A DNA stretch of 64,000 nt, taken from Paramagnetospirillum magnetotacticum MS-1. GTDB lineage: Bacteria; Pseudomonadota; Alphaproteobacteria; Rhodospirillales; Magnetospirillaceae. The stretch covers positions 565,501 to 629,500 of the forward strand of contig NZ_JXSL01000030.1 of the NCBI RefSeq assembly GCF_000829825.1, written 5' to 3'. This document shows, piece after piece, positions 58,095-64,000 of the stretch (the first letter of the stretch is position 1; each line of letters begins with the position of its first letter). The position numbers and the translations under genes were made by a program. Below the pieces are notes generated by a model. It made no database searches, was not told where the DNA came from, and was given only the letters and a program-made list of their open reading frames with translations.

Positions 58095-58523
58095 ATGAGC
58101 CGGGGTGCCAAGCCACCGTCCCAGCGCCAGCTTCGCGTCGGCGAGGAACTGCGCCACGCCATCGCCATGGTGATCGAGCGGGGCGAGTTCCGCGACCCCG
58201 ACCTTCTGGGCCGCGCCATCACCGTTACCGAAGTCCGGGTCAGTCCTGACCTGCGCAACGCCACGGTCTTCGTGGTGCCGCTGGGCGGTGGCGACGTGGC
58301 CCCCATCCTGGCGGGCCTGAAGCGCGCCAAGGCCTTCCTGCGCCACGAAATCTCGCGCATGGTCGAATTGCGCGCCGTGCCCGATCTGTGGTTCCAGGAA
58401 GACACTACCTTCGATACCGCATCCCGAATCGATTCCATTCTCAATTCGCCGGAAGTGCGTCGCGACATCGACCACCCCGCCGCCGAGGATGAGTTCGCCT
58501 CCGATGGGGATGACGGGCTTTAG
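58095..58523 (+). CDS. rbfA: 30S ribosome-binding factor RbfA
   Basis: KH-fold 16S rRNA processing factor. The 142-residue protein has RQLRVGEELRHAIAMVIERGE, ITVTEVRVSPDLRNATVFV and the C-terminal LRAVPDLWFQEDTTFD-like segment (RAVPDLWFQEDTTF). It is the last gene of the operon; truB, the usual next gene, is missing. Its stop overlaps the convergent tetR stop by four bases. Confidence 0.95.
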   Translation: MSRGAKPPSQRQLRVGEELRHAIAMVIERGEFRDPDLLGRAITVTEVRVSPDLRNATVFVVPLGGGDVAPILAGLKRAKAFLRHEISRMVELRAVPDLWFQEDTTFDTASRIDSILNSPEVRRDIDHPAAEDEFASDGDDGL

Positions 58524-59128
58524 CGCTTGCCGTAGGCCCGCATCAGGGTCTGAACGGCCGCGGCTATGGTCTTTGCCACAGAGCGTCCTTCGGGCAGGCC
58601 CAGCAAGGCGCGATGATAGGTTTCGGCCCGCAGCATGCCGATGAACTGATCGGCGATCACCAGGGGATCGATGTCGGTGGCCAGTTCACCTCGTGCCTGA
58701 AGGCAGGCGACCGAGGCGGCGATGGCCGCCTTGCCCCGGATGGGTCCGGTCTCGTAGAAGGCCTGGGCCAGTTCGGGGGTCCGCGCCGATTCGGCCACCA
58801 CCACCCGGTAAAGGGCCATGGCGTCGGGCGTCATCAGCAGACCCAGCAGCCGTTCCGCATACGTCGTGAACGTGCGCTCCGCGTCGAAACTTTCGTCCGG
58901 CGACGCAAAGGCGAAGGATGCCTCGCAACGGCGGTGCATGATGGCGGCAAACAGCTGATCCTTGCCCTCGAAATGGGCGTAGATGGTCGCCTTGGAAACT
59001 TCCGCCCCGGCGGCCACCGCATCCATGCTGGTGGCGGCATAGCCCTCCACCAGGAACAGCCGTTGGGCGGCATCCAGGATGGCCTCGCGCTTGGCCGAGG
59101 GTTTGGACCGGGTCCGGGTCATGGTCAT
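58520..59128 (-). CDS. TetR family transcriptional regulator
   Basis: A 202-residue repressor-type protein. The N-terminal HTH runs KREAILDAAQRLFLVEGYAA, TSMDAVAAGAEVSKATIYAHF (recognition helix), FEGKDQLFAAIM; the C-terminal ligand domain is divergent. GGAGGAG precedes ATG 59128; ATG 59122 is also possible. It is the last gene of the group that includes the membrane protein, radical SAM and Lgt-like genes, with a 32-bp palindrome 14 bp before its start. It probably controls itself and perhaps the group. Confidence 0.93.
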   Translation of the reverse strand: MTMTRTRSKPSAKREAILDAAQRLFLVEGYAATSMDAVAAGAEVSKATIYAHFEGKDQLFAAIMHRRCEASFAFASPDESFDAERTFTTYAERLLGLLMTPDAMALYRVVVAESARTPELAQAFYETGPIRGKAAIAASVACLQARGELATDIDPLVIADQFIGMLRAETYHRALLGLPEGRSVAKTIAAAVQTLMRAYGKR

Positions 59129-59141
59129 GGCTCCTCCACGG

Positions 59142-59173
59142 CCCAAAACTAAACCAATCAGTTCAGTTTTGGG
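59142..59173. promoter_or_regulatory. Palindromic operator candidate of the TetR regulator
   Basis: Arms CCCAAAACT (59142-59150) and AGTTTTGGG (59165-59173) are perfectly inverted around 14 bases, and the inner ACTAAAC/GTTCAGT half-sites extend the symmetry with one mismatch. The size and form are typical of TetR-family operators, and the position immediately upstream of tetR fits autorepression. It overlaps the stop codon of the preceding gene. Confidence 0.65.
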
Positions 59174-59627
59174 AAGGGGAATTTGGCTTAGCCCCGGACC
59201 GGCGCGACAGCCATCCGCCCAGCCGAATCAAGCCGATTCCCATCAACAGCGTGGCCAGGAGCGGAAGCACATAGTCCATGTCGGCCAAACGGCGCTCGAA
59301 ATTCTTGGACATAAGGACGGAATCGACGAAGTCGTAGACTGCGGTCACCACCGTCAGCCAGCCGGAACCGGCCAGGGTGACTGCCGTCCAATAGGCCATG
59401 GGCGAGGGCCGAGCGGTAGCGGCGGAATCATCCGCCAATTTCTTGCGGTAATACTCGGAAATGCCCCGGCCTAAGACCAGGATCACTCCGGCGGCGGCAA
59501 GGCCGATCCAGCCAACCGGGTCCATCATCACGCACAGTCCCGAACCGGCAAGAACCACGATGCCGAGCAAGGTCACAATACCGGCGGCGATCGCTCCGAC
59601 CGGAAGCCGTCGTCGTGGCTCAGTCAT
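59163..59627 (-). CDS. Small four-helix membrane protein of unknown function
   Basis: A 154-residue inner-membrane protein with four hydrophobic segments: PVGAIAAGIVTLLGIVVLAG, WIGLAAAGVILVLGRGI, YWTAVTLAGSGWLTVVTAVY and VLPLLATLLMGIGLIRLG. Polar loops are short. Its start overlaps the radical SAM stop by eight bases, so the two are coupled. No family recognised; a partner or membrane platform for the enzymes upstream is a guess. Confidence 0.8.
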   Translation of the reverse strand: MTEPRRRLPVGAIAAGIVTLLGIVVLAGSGLCVMMDPVGWIGLAAAGVILVLGRGISEYYRKKLADDSAATARPSPMAYWTAVTLAGSGWLTVVTAVYDFVDSVLMSKNFERRLADMDYVLPLLATLLMGIGLIRLGGWLSRRSGAKPNSPSQN

Positions 59628-60990
59628 GGTTATTACTCCGGTGGAACAGGTTGAAGGTGTCGATGGGAATCATCTTGCCGTCGGGCTGGGCCACATGGAC
59701 GCAGGCGCGTTTGACCTGACCCAGGCAGAAGCTGTAGCGGTCGAGGAACTGGACGATGGACAGGCGAAAGACCTTGTCATAGGTCAAGGATGCCGGGGCC
59801 TGGATTCCGGGCAAACAGCACAGCAGCTTGCCCATCTGGACGGCGGTATCCTCCCCCGCGCAGGACATGGACAACAGCCGCATCAGGCTGTCCTTGAGGC
59901 CCGGCACCGCGTCGAAGGTGAGCGCGTTGGGCACCGCCGACAGCAGCAGATCTCTGGGCACCAGCCCGGTTACCGCCGTCGCCCGGTTCCCGTGGCGCAG
60001 GGCATAGGCGATGGTGATGCTTTCCGGATTGCAAGGCAGCGGCACCAGATCGGCCGGGCCGAACAGGCCGTTGGACTGCTCGATGATGGCCCGGCGGATA
60101 TCCGAGGGCAGCATGCGGCTGTCCTTGCCCAGACCGGGGCTGCGCCCGGCGTCTTGCAGGGGCTGGAAGCTGACGCCGCGCACGCAAGCCACAGCCAGGG
60201 CATGGTCGATGATCGCCCCAACCTCCCCGTCATTGACTCCCTTGGCCATGACGCAGACCAGGGTGGTGGAGATGCCGTGGCGATCGAGCGCCGCCAAAGC
60301 CCCCTTACGCACCTCGCGAAGATCGGCGCCCCGCAGAACGCTGAGCGCCTCGGGCTCCAGGCTATCCCATTGCAGATAGACCTCGAAACCCGGACCCAGC
60401 CCGGCCAGGGCGGTGGCAAAGTCCGGGTCGCGGGCCAGACGCACGCCGTTGGTGTTGAGCATCACATGGCGGATGGGGCGCGCCTTGGCCGCCCGCAGAA
60501 TCTCCAGGATCTGGGGATGATCGGCGGGCTCGCCCCCGGAAATCTGGACGATGTCCGGGCTGCCGCCCTCGCTTCGCACCACCGCGTCGAGCATCGCCTC
60601 GACCTCAGCCAGGCTGCGATGGCCGCGCCCGGGCCGCGACTGGGCGAAGCAGGTGGGGCAGTCCAGGCCGCAGGAATCGGTGACCTCCACCAGGGCCAGA
60701 CAGGAATGCTGCTCGTGGTCGGGACACAATCCGCAATCATGGGGACAGCCCTTGTCCACCTGGGTGTGGAAGTGGGCGGGCAGGTCGCCCGGCTTGATGA
60801 AGTCGCGGGCTTCGCGCCAATAGGCGTAATCGCTGGAGATCATGGTGCGCTGAGGCCCGTGGGCGGGACAGCGTTTGAGGTGCCAGACGCAGCCGTCCTC
60901 GGCCACCACCTTGGCCGGAATCAGCGCCAGACAGTCCTCGCACAGGGCATGGGTGGTGCCCAGATAGAGCCAGGGCCTAGGCGTGGGCAT
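59620..60990 (-). CDS. Radical SAM protein with tetraether-synthase-like (Tes/MJ0619-type) Cys pattern
   Basis: A 456-residue radical SAM enzyme. Order: a rubredoxin-like four-Cys site (Cys17, 20, 34, 41); an auxiliary cluster motif GCPHDCGLCPDHEQHSC (Cys82, 86, 89, 97); the radical SAM site CGLDCPTC (Cys107, 111, 114); the SAM-binding QISGGEPADHP; and a Cys-containing C-terminal part ending IDTFNLFHRSN. This layout is that of the MJ0619/Tes group, whose archaeal member joins lipid chains in tetraether synthesis. Its start lies 14 bases inside the Lgt-like gene, a lipid-transfer homologue, which supports a lipid substrate. The actual reaction here is unknown. Confidence 0.82.
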   Translation of the reverse strand: MPTPRPWLYLGTTHALCEDCLALIPAKVVAEDGCVWHLKRCPAHGPQRTMISSDYAYWREARDFIKPGDLPAHFHTQVDKGCPHDCGLCPDHEQHSCLALVEVTDSCGLDCPTCFAQSRPGRGHRSLAEVEAMLDAVVRSEGGSPDIVQISGGEPADHPQILEILRAAKARPIRHVMLNTNGVRLARDPDFATALAGLGPGFEVYLQWDSLEPEALSVLRGADLREVRKGALAALDRHGISTTLVCVMAKGVNDGEVGAIIDHALAVACVRGVSFQPLQDAGRSPGLGKDSRMLPSDIRRAIIEQSNGLFGPADLVPLPCNPESITIAYALRHGNRATAVTGLVPRDLLLSAVPNALTFDAVPGLKDSLMRLLSMSCAGEDTAVQMGKLLCCLPGIQAPASLTYDKVFRLSIVQFLDRYSFCLGQVKRACVHVAQPDGKMIPIDTFNLFHRSNNHD

Positions 60991-61678
60991 GGCGGTCCCT
61001 TCGGCGGCGGATCATCACCAGTCCATAGGCCAGCAGCCCCAGGCAGGTAAGATGAAACAGGTTGAACGGCCCGATCACGTCCGGATAGGGCTTGAGGAAT
61101 TCCCAGCAGAAGCGCTGCCCAGCATAGACGGCCACCAACAGGGCGAAACCATGGCGCCGAGGCATCTCGTGCCCAAGCGCCAGCGCCGCCAGAAACCAGA
61201 CCAGAAAGGCGGCCATGGCCAGACTTTCGTAAAGCTGCACCGGGTGCCGGGCAATCCCGTCGCCGAAATCCATGCCCCAGGGCAGGGCGGTGGGCGTGCC
61301 ATAGGTGAAATCCTCCAGCCCCGACAGCAGACAGCCGATCCGCCCGACGGCGATGCCGAAGGCCAGCGGCGCCACCACGCCAAGACCGGTGGAACCGCTC
61401 AGACCGGTGAAATGCTTGTACGCCTCGACGGCGGCGATGGCTCCGGCCAGGGCGCCGACCACGCTCTTTCCCATGCCGGGCAATCCTGCCAGATGGATGT
61501 TGAGAGTGCCCAAAGCCACCGCGCCCGCCACCGCGCCCAGGATGGCCGAGGCGTACCACCAGGGGTGACGGATGGGATCGGGTGTGGCCGCCCCGGCCAG
61601 CCAGCACCGCCGCACCGCCAGCCCCAGAAGGCCGCCGCCGCCCCAGGCCAGCAGATCGAACACCGTATGAATAGGCAA
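60977..61678 (-). CDS. Lgt-like prolipoprotein diacylglyceryl transferase family protein
   Basis: A 233-residue polytopic membrane protein of the Lgt family. The signature region reads GRIGCLLSGLEDFTYGTPT, keeping the Arg and the G/YG-P frame but with Cys where Lgt usually has Asn; RHPVQLYES and the LLVAVYAGQRFCWEFLKP helix also match. True Lgt transfers diacylglyceryl from phosphatidylglycerol to lipoproteins. The altered signature and the linkage to a radical SAM gene suggest a specialised paralogue. It starts with TTG behind GGGGGACG (GTG 61663 is an alternative) and is the first gene of the group. Confidence 0.82.
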   Translation of the reverse strand: MPIHTVFDLLAWGGGGLLGLAVRRCWLAGAATPDPIRHPWWYASAILGAVAGAVALGTLNIHLAGLPGMGKSVVGALAGAIAAVEAYKHFTGLSGSTGLGVVAPLAFGIAVGRIGCLLSGLEDFTYGTPTALPWGMDFGDGIARHPVQLYESLAMAAFLVWFLAALALGHEMPRRHGFALLVAVYAGQRFCWEFLKPYPDVIGPFNLFHLTCLGLLAYGLVMIRRRRDRHAHA

Positions 61679-61752
61679 GCGTCCCCCGAACCAGCCTGCG
61701 TCCTGGCCGGATCATAGCCGGATTCACGGAAAAGGAGGAAGCCCGTCCGTTT

Positions 61753-64000
61753 TTATTCCACCAGTCCAGCCAGGGCATCGTCCAGGCGGGCCGAGGTGAT
61801 CTCGGTGAGGCGAGGGCCGTCGGTCCACACCAGAACGCAGCGTATCCGGTGATGGGGATAGATGCAGGCCAGGGCCAGACGATAGGCGGCCATCTGGCGG
61901 ACATAGAGATCAGGCACCTCGTCGGGCGTGGCGGGCGGGCGGCGATTGGTCTTGTAATCGGCCACCACCACTTCGGACTCGCTGACCACCAGACGGTCGA
62001 CCCGGCCCGAGACCACCCGGTCGCCGATGCGTCCCACCAGCGGCACCTCGGCCTTGGATCCGGGACCGAACAGCCCGGCCAGCCCCGGATGGTCGAGAAT
62101 GTCCGAGACTTCATTGGCGATGGCCAGTTGCTCGGCGGTCTCCAGCCCCCAGGCCGGGCGGCCCAGGAAGCGCAGCATGGCGCGCGAGCGTTCGGGCCCC
62201 GGCAGTTCGGGGACGGTCTGCAACAGCCGGTGAATGAGCTTGCCCCGCTGCCAGCGCGGCTTGCCGTCGGCCTCGGCGAGTGGCGAACGCACGGTGGGCT
62301 CGTCGCCTTCGGGCCGCGACGGCGCCAGCGGCCGGGGCGGCACCGGCTCGGGCTCGGCCGAAAGTGAAGCCCAGTCGGGCAGAGCGGCGGCGGGCCTTTC
62401 GCCCGGCCCGGCGGCGGAACCCGTCTCGGCGGGCGCGGTCTGGGCATTGGCCAGGACCAGAACCGGCGCTTCGGCGGTCTCCCCCGCTTGGACCAGGAAG
62501 GGGTCGTCGAATTCCGCGGCGGTGGCGGCCAGGGCGCCTTGGACCAGGGCGTGCCAGCAAGTCTCGGGCGCCGCCTTCAGGCCCCGCCAGCCGCACAGGA
62601 TCAGCCGGTCCTCGGCCCGCGTCATGGCCACATAGAGCAGGCGGCGATATTCCCTTTCCCGCGACAGCTTGCGCGCCTCCGCGCCCCGGCGGCAGACCGC
62701 GTCCATATCCTCGGCGCGCGGCGGCCAGGCGGGCAGCTCCTCCTCGCCCTCGCCCAGCCATAACAGCCGGGGCGAGCGGGTCGGCACCTGCATGGTGTCG
62801 GGCAGGAAGACGATGGGTGCCTGCAGGCCCTTGGACCCGTGCACGGTCATGATGCGCACCGCGTCACGCCCCCCTTGCTCCAGGTCGCGCTTGATCTCCA
62901 GCGCACCGGCCTCCAGCCAGTGGAGGAAGCCTTGCAGCGAAGGCGGATGGGCGCGTTCGAAGGCCAGCGTCAGCGACATGAACTCGTCGATGGCATCCTC
63001 GGCCTCCAACCCCAGCCTGGCCAGCAGGTTCCGCCGCCCGCCCAGCGGCCCCAGCACCCGCGCGTAAAGCGTATGGGGCGAGACATGGTCGGCCTGGGCC
63101 AGCAACTGAGAAAGCTGGCGAAAGGCCATCTCGAAAACGCCGCCCTCATGGGCGACGCCCCGGCGCAAGGCCTCCCACAGCCCCACATCCTCGCCGCGAT
63201 GATGGGCCAGGGTGAACAGCTGCTCCTCGGTGAGCCCCACCAGCGGCCCTTTCAGCACGGTGGCCAGCGTCAGGTCGTCTTCGGGCAGCAGCAGAAAATT
63301 GCCCAGCGCCATCAGATCCATGACCGCCATCTGCTCGGTCAGCACCATGCGGTCGGCGCCCGCCACCTCCACCTTGCGGCTTTTCAGTTCGCGCACCAGA
63401 TCCTCGACGAAGCCGCCCCGGCGGCGCACCAGGACCAGCACGTCACCGGCCCGCACCGGGCGGGCCTTGGACTCCAGCATCTCGCCGTCGATCATGGCGC
63501 GGATGCGCGACGCCACCAGCCGGGCCAGCCGGGTGCGGGGCGAATCGCCTCTGATGCGCTCCACCGGCGGCTTCCAGGCGGGCGGCTCGTCGGTGGGACG
63601 GGGTTCGACGGCTGGCCACACCTCCACCCTTCCGGCCTGACCGCCGCGATGGGGCAGATGGGTGATGTCCTCATCACCCGCCACCCCGTCGCGCCCCGGC
63701 TGACCGGGGGCGAAGACGGCATTGACCGCGTCCAGCACCGATGGCGCCGAGCGGAAGGACAGATTGAGGTCCACCACATCCCACTTGCCGCCCGCGGCGG
63801 GCACATGGGCGGCGAAGGCCTGGCGCATGCGCTCGAATTCGCGCGGATCGGCGCGCTGGAATGAATAGATGGACTGCTTGGCGTCGCCCACGGCGAAGAC
63901 GGTGCGCAAGCTTTCGCGCGCGCCGCGTCCGGCGAAGAATTCCTCGGTCAGTTTCTCGACCACCGCCCATTGATCGGGATTGGTGTCCTGTGCCTCGTCG
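61753..64000 (-). CDS. addA: Double-strand break repair helicase-nuclease AddA, N-terminus beyond window
   Basis: C-terminal about 750 residues of a UvrD-type helicase with RecB-type nuclease. The visible part begins in helicase motif II (DEAQDTNPDQW), then motif III FAVGDAKQSIYSFQRADP, motif IV NLSFRSAP, motif V IMTVHGSKGLQAPIVFLPD and motif VI LLYVAMTRAEDRLIL. The nuclease domain at the end has GRVDRLVV, VVADYKTNRRPP and QMAAYRLAL. This is the alphaproteobacterial AddA layout. The frame runs on past position 64000, so the start and motif I are not seen. addB is not in the window. Confidence 0.93.
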   Translation of the reverse strand, partial: DEAQDTNPDQWAVVEKLTEEFFAGRGARESLRTVFAVGDAKQSIYSFQRADPREFERMRQAFAAHVPAAGGKWDVVDLNLSFRSAPSVLDAVNAVFAPGQPGRDGVAGDEDITHLPHRGGQAGRVEVWPAVEPRPTDEPPAWKPPVERIRGDSPRTRLARLVASRIRAMIDGEMLESKARPVRAGDVLVLVRRRGGFVEDLVRELKSRKVEVAGADRMVLTEQMAVMDLMALGNFLLLPEDDLTLATVLKGPLVGLTEEQLFTLAHHRGEDVGLWEALRRGVAHEGGVFEMAFRQLSQLLAQADHVSPHTLYARVLGPLGGRRNLLARLGLEAEDAIDEFMSLTLAFERAHPPSLQGFLHWLEAGALEIKRDLEQGGRDAVRIMTVHGSKGLQAPIVFLPDTMQVPTRSPRLLWLGEGEEELPAWPPRAEDMDAVCRRGAEARKLSREREYRRLLYVAMTRAEDRLILCGWRGLKAAPETCWHALVQGALAATAAEFDDPFLVQAGETAEAPVLVLANAQTAPAETGSAAGPGERPAAALPDWASLSAEPEPVPPRPLAPSRPEGDEPTVRSPLAEADGKPRWQRGKLIHRLLQTVPELPGPERSRAMLRFLGRPAWGLETAEQLAIANEVSDILDHPGLAGLFGPGSKAEVPLVGRIGDRVVSGRVDRLVVSESEVVVADYKTNRRPPATPDEVPDLYVRQMAAYRLALACIYPHHRIRCVLVWTDGPRLTEITSARLDDALAGLVE

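Follow-up and report, generated by a model that had tools for sequence, protein, structure and literature searches.

A 64,000-nucleotide stretch of the genome of Paramagnetospirillum magnetotacticum MS-1 (contig NZ_JXSL01000030.1; hereafter the window) carries three overlapping genes, all on the minus strand and where an earlier note on this DNA had placed them, which encode a membrane protein resembling prolipoprotein diacylglyceryl transferase (Lgt), a radical S-adenosylmethionine (SAM) protein related to the tetraether lipid synthase Tes, and a small membrane protein with one cysteine. We found that genes of these three kinds form a conserved three-gene unit, a conclusion we hold with very high confidence, and that this cassette is distributed sporadically in several phyla. 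The sequences of its products suggest an undescribed bacterial way to attach or remodel lipids.

A pattern-based scan of genomes, one per species, yielded at least 20 relatives of the radical SAM protein, the close ones (44-57% identity; L003-L009, L013) being from Pseudomonadota, Planctomycetota, Bacteroidota and Myxococcota. An Lgt-like gene is present at 27 of the 28 discovery loci, five of which (L031, L032, L033, L044, L054) come from one genus; the exception, L005, is a contig that starts at the radical SAM gene. The copy at L007 is short, and that at L006 is divergent, groups apart and is not clearly of the same type. A small protein with the motif GxC is encoded on the same strand within 600 bp at 25 of the 28 loci, and all 15 held-out loci have the Lgt-like gene. 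By comparison, no Lgt-like gene was found at 12 Tes-, TrsS- or TrsM-type loci (L010-L012, L014-L022; some of these contigs are short), and a GxC small protein, seemingly unrelated, occurs at one of 12 control loci (L011). The three genes stay linked across several phyla, and the arrangement is not peculiar to this genome, a possibility that the earlier note had raised against its own proposal.

Searches of genome samples at the level of class, phylum, order and family, which overlap, recovered the radical SAM gene in 6 of 385 alphaproteobacterial genomes (E <= 1e-60; four in the tight clade described below and two distant), in 12 of 398 genomes of the phylum (E <= 1e-40) and in 7 of 248 genomes of the order (E <= 1e-50; two in the tight clade and five others at 232-248 bits); one family and two further orders gave 8/116, 8/200 and 1/48 (E <= 1e-100). 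None of the five other order-level loci (L102-L106) has an Lgt-like gene in its 1.5-kb flanks. Lgt-like genes of the cassette type (at least 194 bits, the next Lgt match scoring 97.6) occur in seven of the 385 alphaproteobacterial genomes, namely the same six that have the radical SAM gene and one with a truncated copy in which no radical SAM gene was found. Ten plasmid records have a radical SAM match, and four of the seven that were examined (H1, H7, H8, H10) have an Lgt-like gene near it, one from Bacteroidota (Persicobacter), two from Mycobacterium and one from Nonomuraea; H2, H4 and H9 have a methyltransferase gene in its place. Distances among the radical SAM and the Lgt-like proteins are correlated (Mantel r 0.80, n 23), which fits co-inheritance, and shared species history could also yield this value.

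Gene content varies around some of these loci. In two small alphaproteobacterial genomes a membrane methyltransferase-like gene follows the cassette (L052:3768-4745, L053:8643-9644), the L052 copy matching ICMT (E 3e-13) and PEMT, and at L043 an MFS-like open reading frame (ORF) lies downstream. A gene for a lipoprotein-like protein separates the Lgt-like gene from the radical SAM gene at three related loci of genus g396, which is not in the window's class (L045:5171-5989, L121:5398-6252, L122:5398-6216), and its L045 copy has a match to Sel1 repeats (E 2.9e-8). Another Tes-like branch (L010, L011, L012, L040, L041, L057; hosts in Chloroflexota, Afipia, Mycolicibacterium and haloarchaea) is followed by a methyltransferase gene and not by the Lgt-like cassette, the call for L010-L012 having been made by reading the sequence. 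Two different Tes-like radical SAM genes stand in tandem at L015:454-3329 and L017:4482-7353.

The three proteins of the cassette

The Lgt-like protein matches Pfam LGT (PF01790) at 61.1 bits, over the gathering score of 24.9, across profile positions 78-238 only, and its predicted model has the Lgt fold; its best NCBIfam lgt equivalog score, 36.3 bits, is under the cut-off of 334. It retains R113 (Arg143 of Escherichia coli Lgt), Y185 (Tyr235), R189 (Arg239) and E193 (Glu243), and has V74 in place of His103, C116 in place of Asn146 and H4 in place of Tyr26. Among 23 Lgt-like proteins, Arg143 is kept in 21 and replaced by Lys in two, and Arg239 is kept in all; both are essential in E. coli Lgt, in which the active site is presumably on the periplasmic side (PMC4728403). 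Asn146, also essential in E. coli, is present in 23/23 canonical Lgts and 0/23 Lgt-like proteins, all of which have a new invariant Cys there, so that the window protein reads GRIGC in place of GRxGN, as had been noticed earlier. A natural N146C Lgt of L. interrogans is partly functional, and some Lgts have Y, W or F in place of His103 (PMC13251419). In the Lgt tree, a branch with 100/100 support splits the Lgt-like proteins from the 23 canonical ones; a weak midpoint split (50/81) puts the actinobacterial rows and L006 with the canonical side, yet they fall outside the canonical group. A separate canonical lgt lies elsewhere in the genome (G000:C30:308949-309695, E 2.6e-74), so the Lgt-like gene is not the sole lgt, and this gene and the tree together bear out the earlier view that the cassette protein is not the housekeeping enzyme.

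The radical SAM protein aligns with GDGT-MAS (PDB 7tol) over residues 13-325 and a C-terminal piece (E 1.3e-56), and the kinship with the MJ0619/Tes group that had been proposed for it is real; the motifs GCPHDCGLCP and CGLDCPTC are both present. Its best NCBIfam match is TrsS (NF045646; 277.6 bits, under the cut-off of 490), followed here by its score against Tes (NF045702) of 237.2 bits, under the cut-off of 450; as controls, archaeal L016 scored 661.3 bits against Tes, and L018 and L020 scored 565.9 and 597.1 bits against TrsS. We know of no function for TrsS. A residue table showed that the GDGT-MAS metal sites up to the radical SAM core are all retained: a rubredoxin-type site (Cx2C...Cx2H; C17, C20, C41, H44), an N-terminal CxxxCxxC plus His cluster site (C82, C86, C89, H92) and the CX3CX2C core (C107, C111, C114). 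The rubredoxin-type site is thus Cys3His, the ligand set of GDGT-MAS (C9, C12, C33, H36; PMC9433317), and not the Cys4 given earlier; its three cysteines are kept in all 36 rows of alignment A3. The C-terminal cluster site is altered, with C320, C391, C392 and C430, which are invariant across the 19 tight-clade rows, and Asp444 at the position of a Tes cysteine. The positions of Tes Met439, Tyr459 and the PFC cysteine read V413, V433 and D444 in the window protein and M, Y and C in archaeal L016. Met439 is kept in 7/19 tight-clade rows; Met439 and Tyr459 are conserved in 1000 archaeal homologs (PMC9433317).

Phylogenetic analysis placed the window protein in a tight clade (support 100/100), with Tes, TrsS and TrsM-type rows together elsewhere in the tree (95/89). 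It joins no family of known non-lipid function, which is the outcome on which the earlier note had made its proposal depend, and by its sequence the protein is a relative of Tes and not a Tes. The Lgt-linked radical SAM proteins of actinobacteria and of a second alphaproteobacterial group branch apart from the tight clade; a single clade of all Lgt-linked proteins was neither established nor rejected (approximately unbiased test, p-AU 0.213), long branches weaken the tree, and recruitment of the radical SAM gene with the Lgt-like gene may have happened once or several times, both being compatible with it. The actinobacterial proteins (L042, L055, L056) have lost the N-terminal CxxxCxxC site and kept the rubredoxin-type site. 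Two other identities were considered for the radical SAM gene and rejected: a selenoprotein, since the single TGA in the own-genome match is by its coordinates the gene's own stop, and a component of a defence system, for which PADLOC gave just weak viperin matches, of 31.3 and 26.9 bits, falling on the generic radical SAM core.

The small membrane protein of the window has a single cysteine, C32, in the tripeptide G30-L31-C32 where its first helix ends, and G30 and C32 are the only invariant positions in a 16-row alignment (A8). The earlier count of four helices stands for three of them by hydropathy; a fourth, weaker one is possible. No BLAST match to it was found at E <= 1 in loci L003-L022, and many of these loci encode small proteins of a common plan, with two or three helices, one of them ending in a Gly-x-Cys motif. 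Two tandem copies are present at 8 of the 28 discovery loci (L031, L042, L043, L048, L050, L051, L052, L055), and two or three at 3 of the 15 held-out loci. As L123 ends inside the Lgt-like gene, 14 held-out loci could be assessed; strict GxC occurs in 10/15, with SxC in L124 and L125 and PxC in L126 and L127 (the last with three tandem copies), and in all 14 a small membrane protein carries [GSP]xC where a helix ends, under a rule set after they had been inspected. Strict GxC was found in 33 of 39 small proteins as against a mean of 2.3 after shuffling, a comparison that is illustrative only, the proteins having mostly been picked for their Cys.

In 24 of 27 small proteins the helix has more Lys and Arg on its N-terminal than on its C-terminal side, and the Cys is therefore predicted to lie outside; this count omits L049, whose start is off frame and whose motif is still counted among the discovery loci. 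Cleavage by signal peptidase II calls for Gly, Ala or Ser directly ahead of the Cys. Such a residue is present in 10/27 small proteins and a different one in the other 17/27, so that most should escape this peptidase; the window protein, with Leu there, departs from the canonical lipobox. No Pfam match over cut-off was obtained for the small proteins of the window, L004 and L008 or for the two of L052, and among the 16 aligned proteins two have a weak holin-like match and one a weak B12D match. A profile of the small proteins matched the window's own genome at the cassette (E 2.9e-4; next match 0.86). Strong matches (E <= 1e-9) lie at the cassette only, in 11 cassette genomes, weak ones (E 0.006 to 0.1) lie elsewhere in four cassette genomes, and no match better than E 0.005 was found in nine genomes without the cassette; members of the search models match by construction, and the genomes without a match are the informative part. 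The conserved cysteine of the small protein, which the earlier note passed over, may be the point of the system.

Candidate function and its alternatives

We propose that the unit is a horizontally spread lipidation cassette with three components. The Lgt-like enzyme would bind a phosphatidylglycerol-type lipid through its conserved arginines and move the glyceride onto the Cys thiol of the small protein ([G/S/P]-x-C, where a transmembrane helix ends on the outer side); most small proteins would stay uncut by signal peptidase II, so that the product would remain a transmembrane protein, now with a lipid attached. The radical SAM enzyme, a relative of Tes, would abstract a hydrogen from a lipid tail and join or otherwise alter the tails, acting on the lipid either before transfer or once attached, and the outcome would be a cross-linked or bilayer-spanning anchor. 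We infer the acceptor Cys, the glyceride as the transferred group and the role of the radical step. Taken as a whole, with the Lgt-like enzyme lipidating the small proteins and the radical SAM enzyme acting on the lipid, the mechanism is put forward tentatively, as a serious possibility that falls somewhat short of probable. Its most specific form, in which a glyceride with radical-welded tails is put on a membrane-surface Cys of small transmembrane proteins by a mobile three-gene cassette found in several phyla, we consider unlikely to be right in every part.

The presence of a dedicated Lgt-like enzyme, of dedicated Cys proteins and of a radical enzyme from a lipid-tail superfamily makes lipidation of the small proteins, with the radical enzyme acting on the lipid before or after transfer, the most economical reading. 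The substrate Cys of Lgt directly follows a hydrophobic segment, and the enzyme works on it at the periplasmic face. Retention of Arg143 and Arg239, the partial function of an N146C Lgt and the variation at His103 among other Lgts also count in favour of the proposal. Tandem small-protein copies, as counted above in both sets of loci, are as expected if these proteins are substrates. GDGT-MAS, the solved member of the radical SAM superfamily, takes lipid tails into a hydrophobic tunnel and couples them. Bacterial phospholipids are held by this enzyme, which does not discriminate between head groups (PMC9433317).

Several observations weigh against this proposal. His103, essential in E. coli, is present in 23/23 canonical Lgts and 0/23 Lgt-like proteins, where the position holds no Tyr or Trp substitute and one Phe. 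Asn149 is kept in 2/23 Lgt-like proteins and Glu151 in 3/23. In the radical SAM protein, Tyr459 is replaced by Phe, Ile or Val and the PFC cysteine by Asp or Glu, each in 19/19 tight-clade rows; the latter residue is presumably a cluster ligand in Tes, and the lack of both means that coupling of the Tes type is not assured. The radical SAM protein is also an enzyme of the cytosolic type, whereas the Cys is predicted outside. A Cys protein is lacking at 3 of the 28 discovery loci, L005 having a small membrane protein without Cys and none having been found at L006 and L007; strict GxC fails in 4 of the 14 assessable held-out loci, the rule having been relaxed afterwards; and the discovery and held-out loci share some genera and are not fully independent. 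The main doubts among these concern the lack of His103, the altered C-terminal cluster, the membrane side of the radical step and the loci without a Cys protein.

That the system makes or attaches an unusual lipid, as the earlier note supposed, is plausible. In a free-lipid reading that follows that note, the radical SAM and Lgt-like proteins would together make an unusual lipid of the membrane, such as a macrocyclic or tail-coupled phospholipid; the role of the small protein would then be structural or regulatory, and its Cys would be no acceptor. The radical SAM protein belongs to the Tes superfamily, bacterial members of which have been proposed as makers of membrane-spanning lipids (PMC8941075, PMC11868695), and the loss of the acceptor-side His103 while the lipid-binding arginines are retained would suit such a role; however, an account of this kind leaves unexplained both the tandem small proteins that share mainly a Cys at the outer helix end and the need for an Lgt fold, and we regard it as possible but doubtful.

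Carbon-sulfur chemistry offers a different view of the small proteins, which are divergent, at times tandem, have one conserved Cys and so resemble precursor peptides: as in the maturation of ribosomally synthesized and post-translationally modified peptides, the radical SAM enzyme could modify them directly, for example by a thioether at the GxC Cys, with the Lgt-like protein only binding or positioning them in lipid. Tes chemistry does go through a carbon-sulfur intermediate (PMC9433317), but the closest solved relative works on lipid tails, the prediction for 24/27 small proteins puts the Cys on the outer face, away from a cytosolic radical enzyme, and no recurrent leader, protease or exporter gene was noticed in the ORF lists that were read, in which no systematic search was made; we hold direct modification to be improbable. 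It would be still harder to credit, and we think it very improbable, that the Lgt-like protein is catalytically dead, a lipid-binding scaffold or sensor in a cassette with an unrelated membrane role. The canonical His103, Asn146, Asn149 and Glu151 are absent or seldom kept, as this would require, yet Arg143, Tyr235, Arg239, Glu243 and the new Cys (23/23) are strongly constrained, and an N146C Lgt can work (PMC13251419).

Insertion site, TetR and layout of the locus

The Lgt-like and radical SAM genes overlap by 14 bp and the radical SAM and small-protein genes by 8 bp (Table 1). Upstream lies a gene that we take from its sequence to be addA (stop at 61753); downstream is tetR, followed on the opposite strand by what are presumably rbfA and infB.

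Table 1. Positions in the window of the cassette, its genes and the adjoining regulatory features
Feature	Position	Strand	Remarks
Lgt-like membrane protein gene	60977..61678	-	TTG start; 233 aa; seven predicted helices
Tes-like radical SAM protein gene	59620..60990	-	456 aa
Small membrane protein gene	59163..59627	-	154 aa; proposed lipid acceptor
G30-L31-C32 codons (GxC motif) of small membrane protein	59532..59540	-	
Cassette	59183..61752		~2.57 kb; three genes; ends accurate to a few bases
TetR-family regulator gene	58520..59146	-	AefR-like C-terminal domain (Pfam); probable ATG start 59128; outside cassette
Palindromic operator core AAACTNAAC-N6-GTTNAGTTT	59146..59169		24 bp; outside cassette

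The addA gene is present in 16/16 genomes of the genus, that of the window included. Among 13 same-genus relatives for which the locus was returned, tetR directly follows addA in seven, all without the cassette there, and no tetR match was found inside the flank examined in the other six. The spacer between addA and tetR in the seven is short and carries the palindromic operator or a close variant. Alignment with the addA-tetR junctions of L129, L130 and L132 showed that the window has about 2.57 kb extra, containing exactly the three genes of the unit, with a G+C content (0.66) similar to that of the window (0.65). No target-site duplication was found near the insert ends, and the order-level search (E <= 1e-50) found no radical SAM gene in the 14 other genomes of the genus that it listed.

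The palindrome ahead of tetR is where the earlier note had seen it, and the inclusion of tetR and its operator in the unit does not hold, as 7/13 relatives have tetR after addA without the cassette. One other perfect copy of the operator core exists in the genome (G000:C22:80138-80161; L058:3139-3162), 10 bp ahead of an HlyD-type gene that is followed by an MFS transporter gene, and two more operator-like sites with two mismatches each lie on contig C9. From this second copy and from the addA-tetR locus of the relatives, the TetR protein looks like an efflux regulator belonging to an older addA-tetR locus, and the HlyD/MFS pair is likely its true target. The suggestion that the system is regulated by this TetR is not supported: the setting of the perfect operator copies and the cassette-free sites in relatives speak otherwise, and on these grounds we reject TetR control of the cassette.

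Elsewhere, a truncated Lgt-like remnant (L065, G326:C68) and an intact cassette (L013:7993-9285) both adjoin a gene of the same appearance, presumably argG, which suggests possible repeated use of this neighbourhood.

Relation to known systems

In the open-licence literature no paper was found that names tetraether lipid synthase together with prolipoprotein diacylglyceryl transferase, we saw none that joins these enzymes into one system, and a prior description elsewhere is possible. Among the few papers that mention both diacylglyceryl transferase and radical SAM, the context is unrelated in the one on graspetides (PMC8939145). What is new is the system, each enzyme being a distant member of a known superfamily. 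Bacterial Tes homologs are already known, and synthesis of membrane-spanning lipids by them has been proposed, not shown (PMC8941075, PMC11868695); the system would be less novel were its product found to be an ordinary tail-coupled lipid. If our proposal is true, bacteria with the cassette would have, besides the canonical one, a dedicated pathway of the Lgt type that serves acceptors of its own, and radical lipid chemistry would be coupled to protein lipidation. Bacterial Tes homologs have also been read as possible markers of membrane-spanning branched glycerol dialkyl glycerol tetraether (brGDGT) lipids, which are palaeoclimate proxies (PMC8941075, PMC11868695), and counts of such markers would need sorting if one bacterial Tes-like branch serves protein lipidation. 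The function of the cassette is directly testable, given its small size (2.6 kb), its natural insertion and the ready controls that same-genus genomes without it provide.

Canonical Lgt (E. coli, 5azb) differs from the cassette protein, which lacks His103, has Cys for Asn146 and His for Tyr26, and is a second Lgt-type protein encoded alongside a canonical one. A closer likeness, drawn from its description only, is MSMEG_5408, the second mycobacterial Lgt homolog, which has both Y26H and N146C and is presumed to have low Lgt activity (PMC13251419). Mss, the membrane-spanning lipid synthase of bacteria, also compared by description only, is said to couple fatty acyl tails and, according to predicted models, to have a catalytic architecture in common with Tes; unlike the cassette enzyme, it is given no Lgt-like partner in the available excerpts (PMC13274423, PMC11868695). 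TrsS, although the best NCBIfam match of the window protein, is set apart from it: its three rows form their own clade (100/99) inside the Tes-containing group, away from the window's clade, and no Lgt-like gene was found near the TrsS-type loci examined. Tes/GDGT-MAS (MJ0619, MA_1486) shares with the window protein its superfamily, its domain order and the Cys3His, CxxxCxxC plus His and CX3CX2C sites; the window protein, by contrast, scores under the Tes cut-off, is without Tyr459 and the PFC Cys and has the extra C320 and C391-C392, and radical SAM proteins of its type are bacterial and linked to Lgt-like and Cys proteins.

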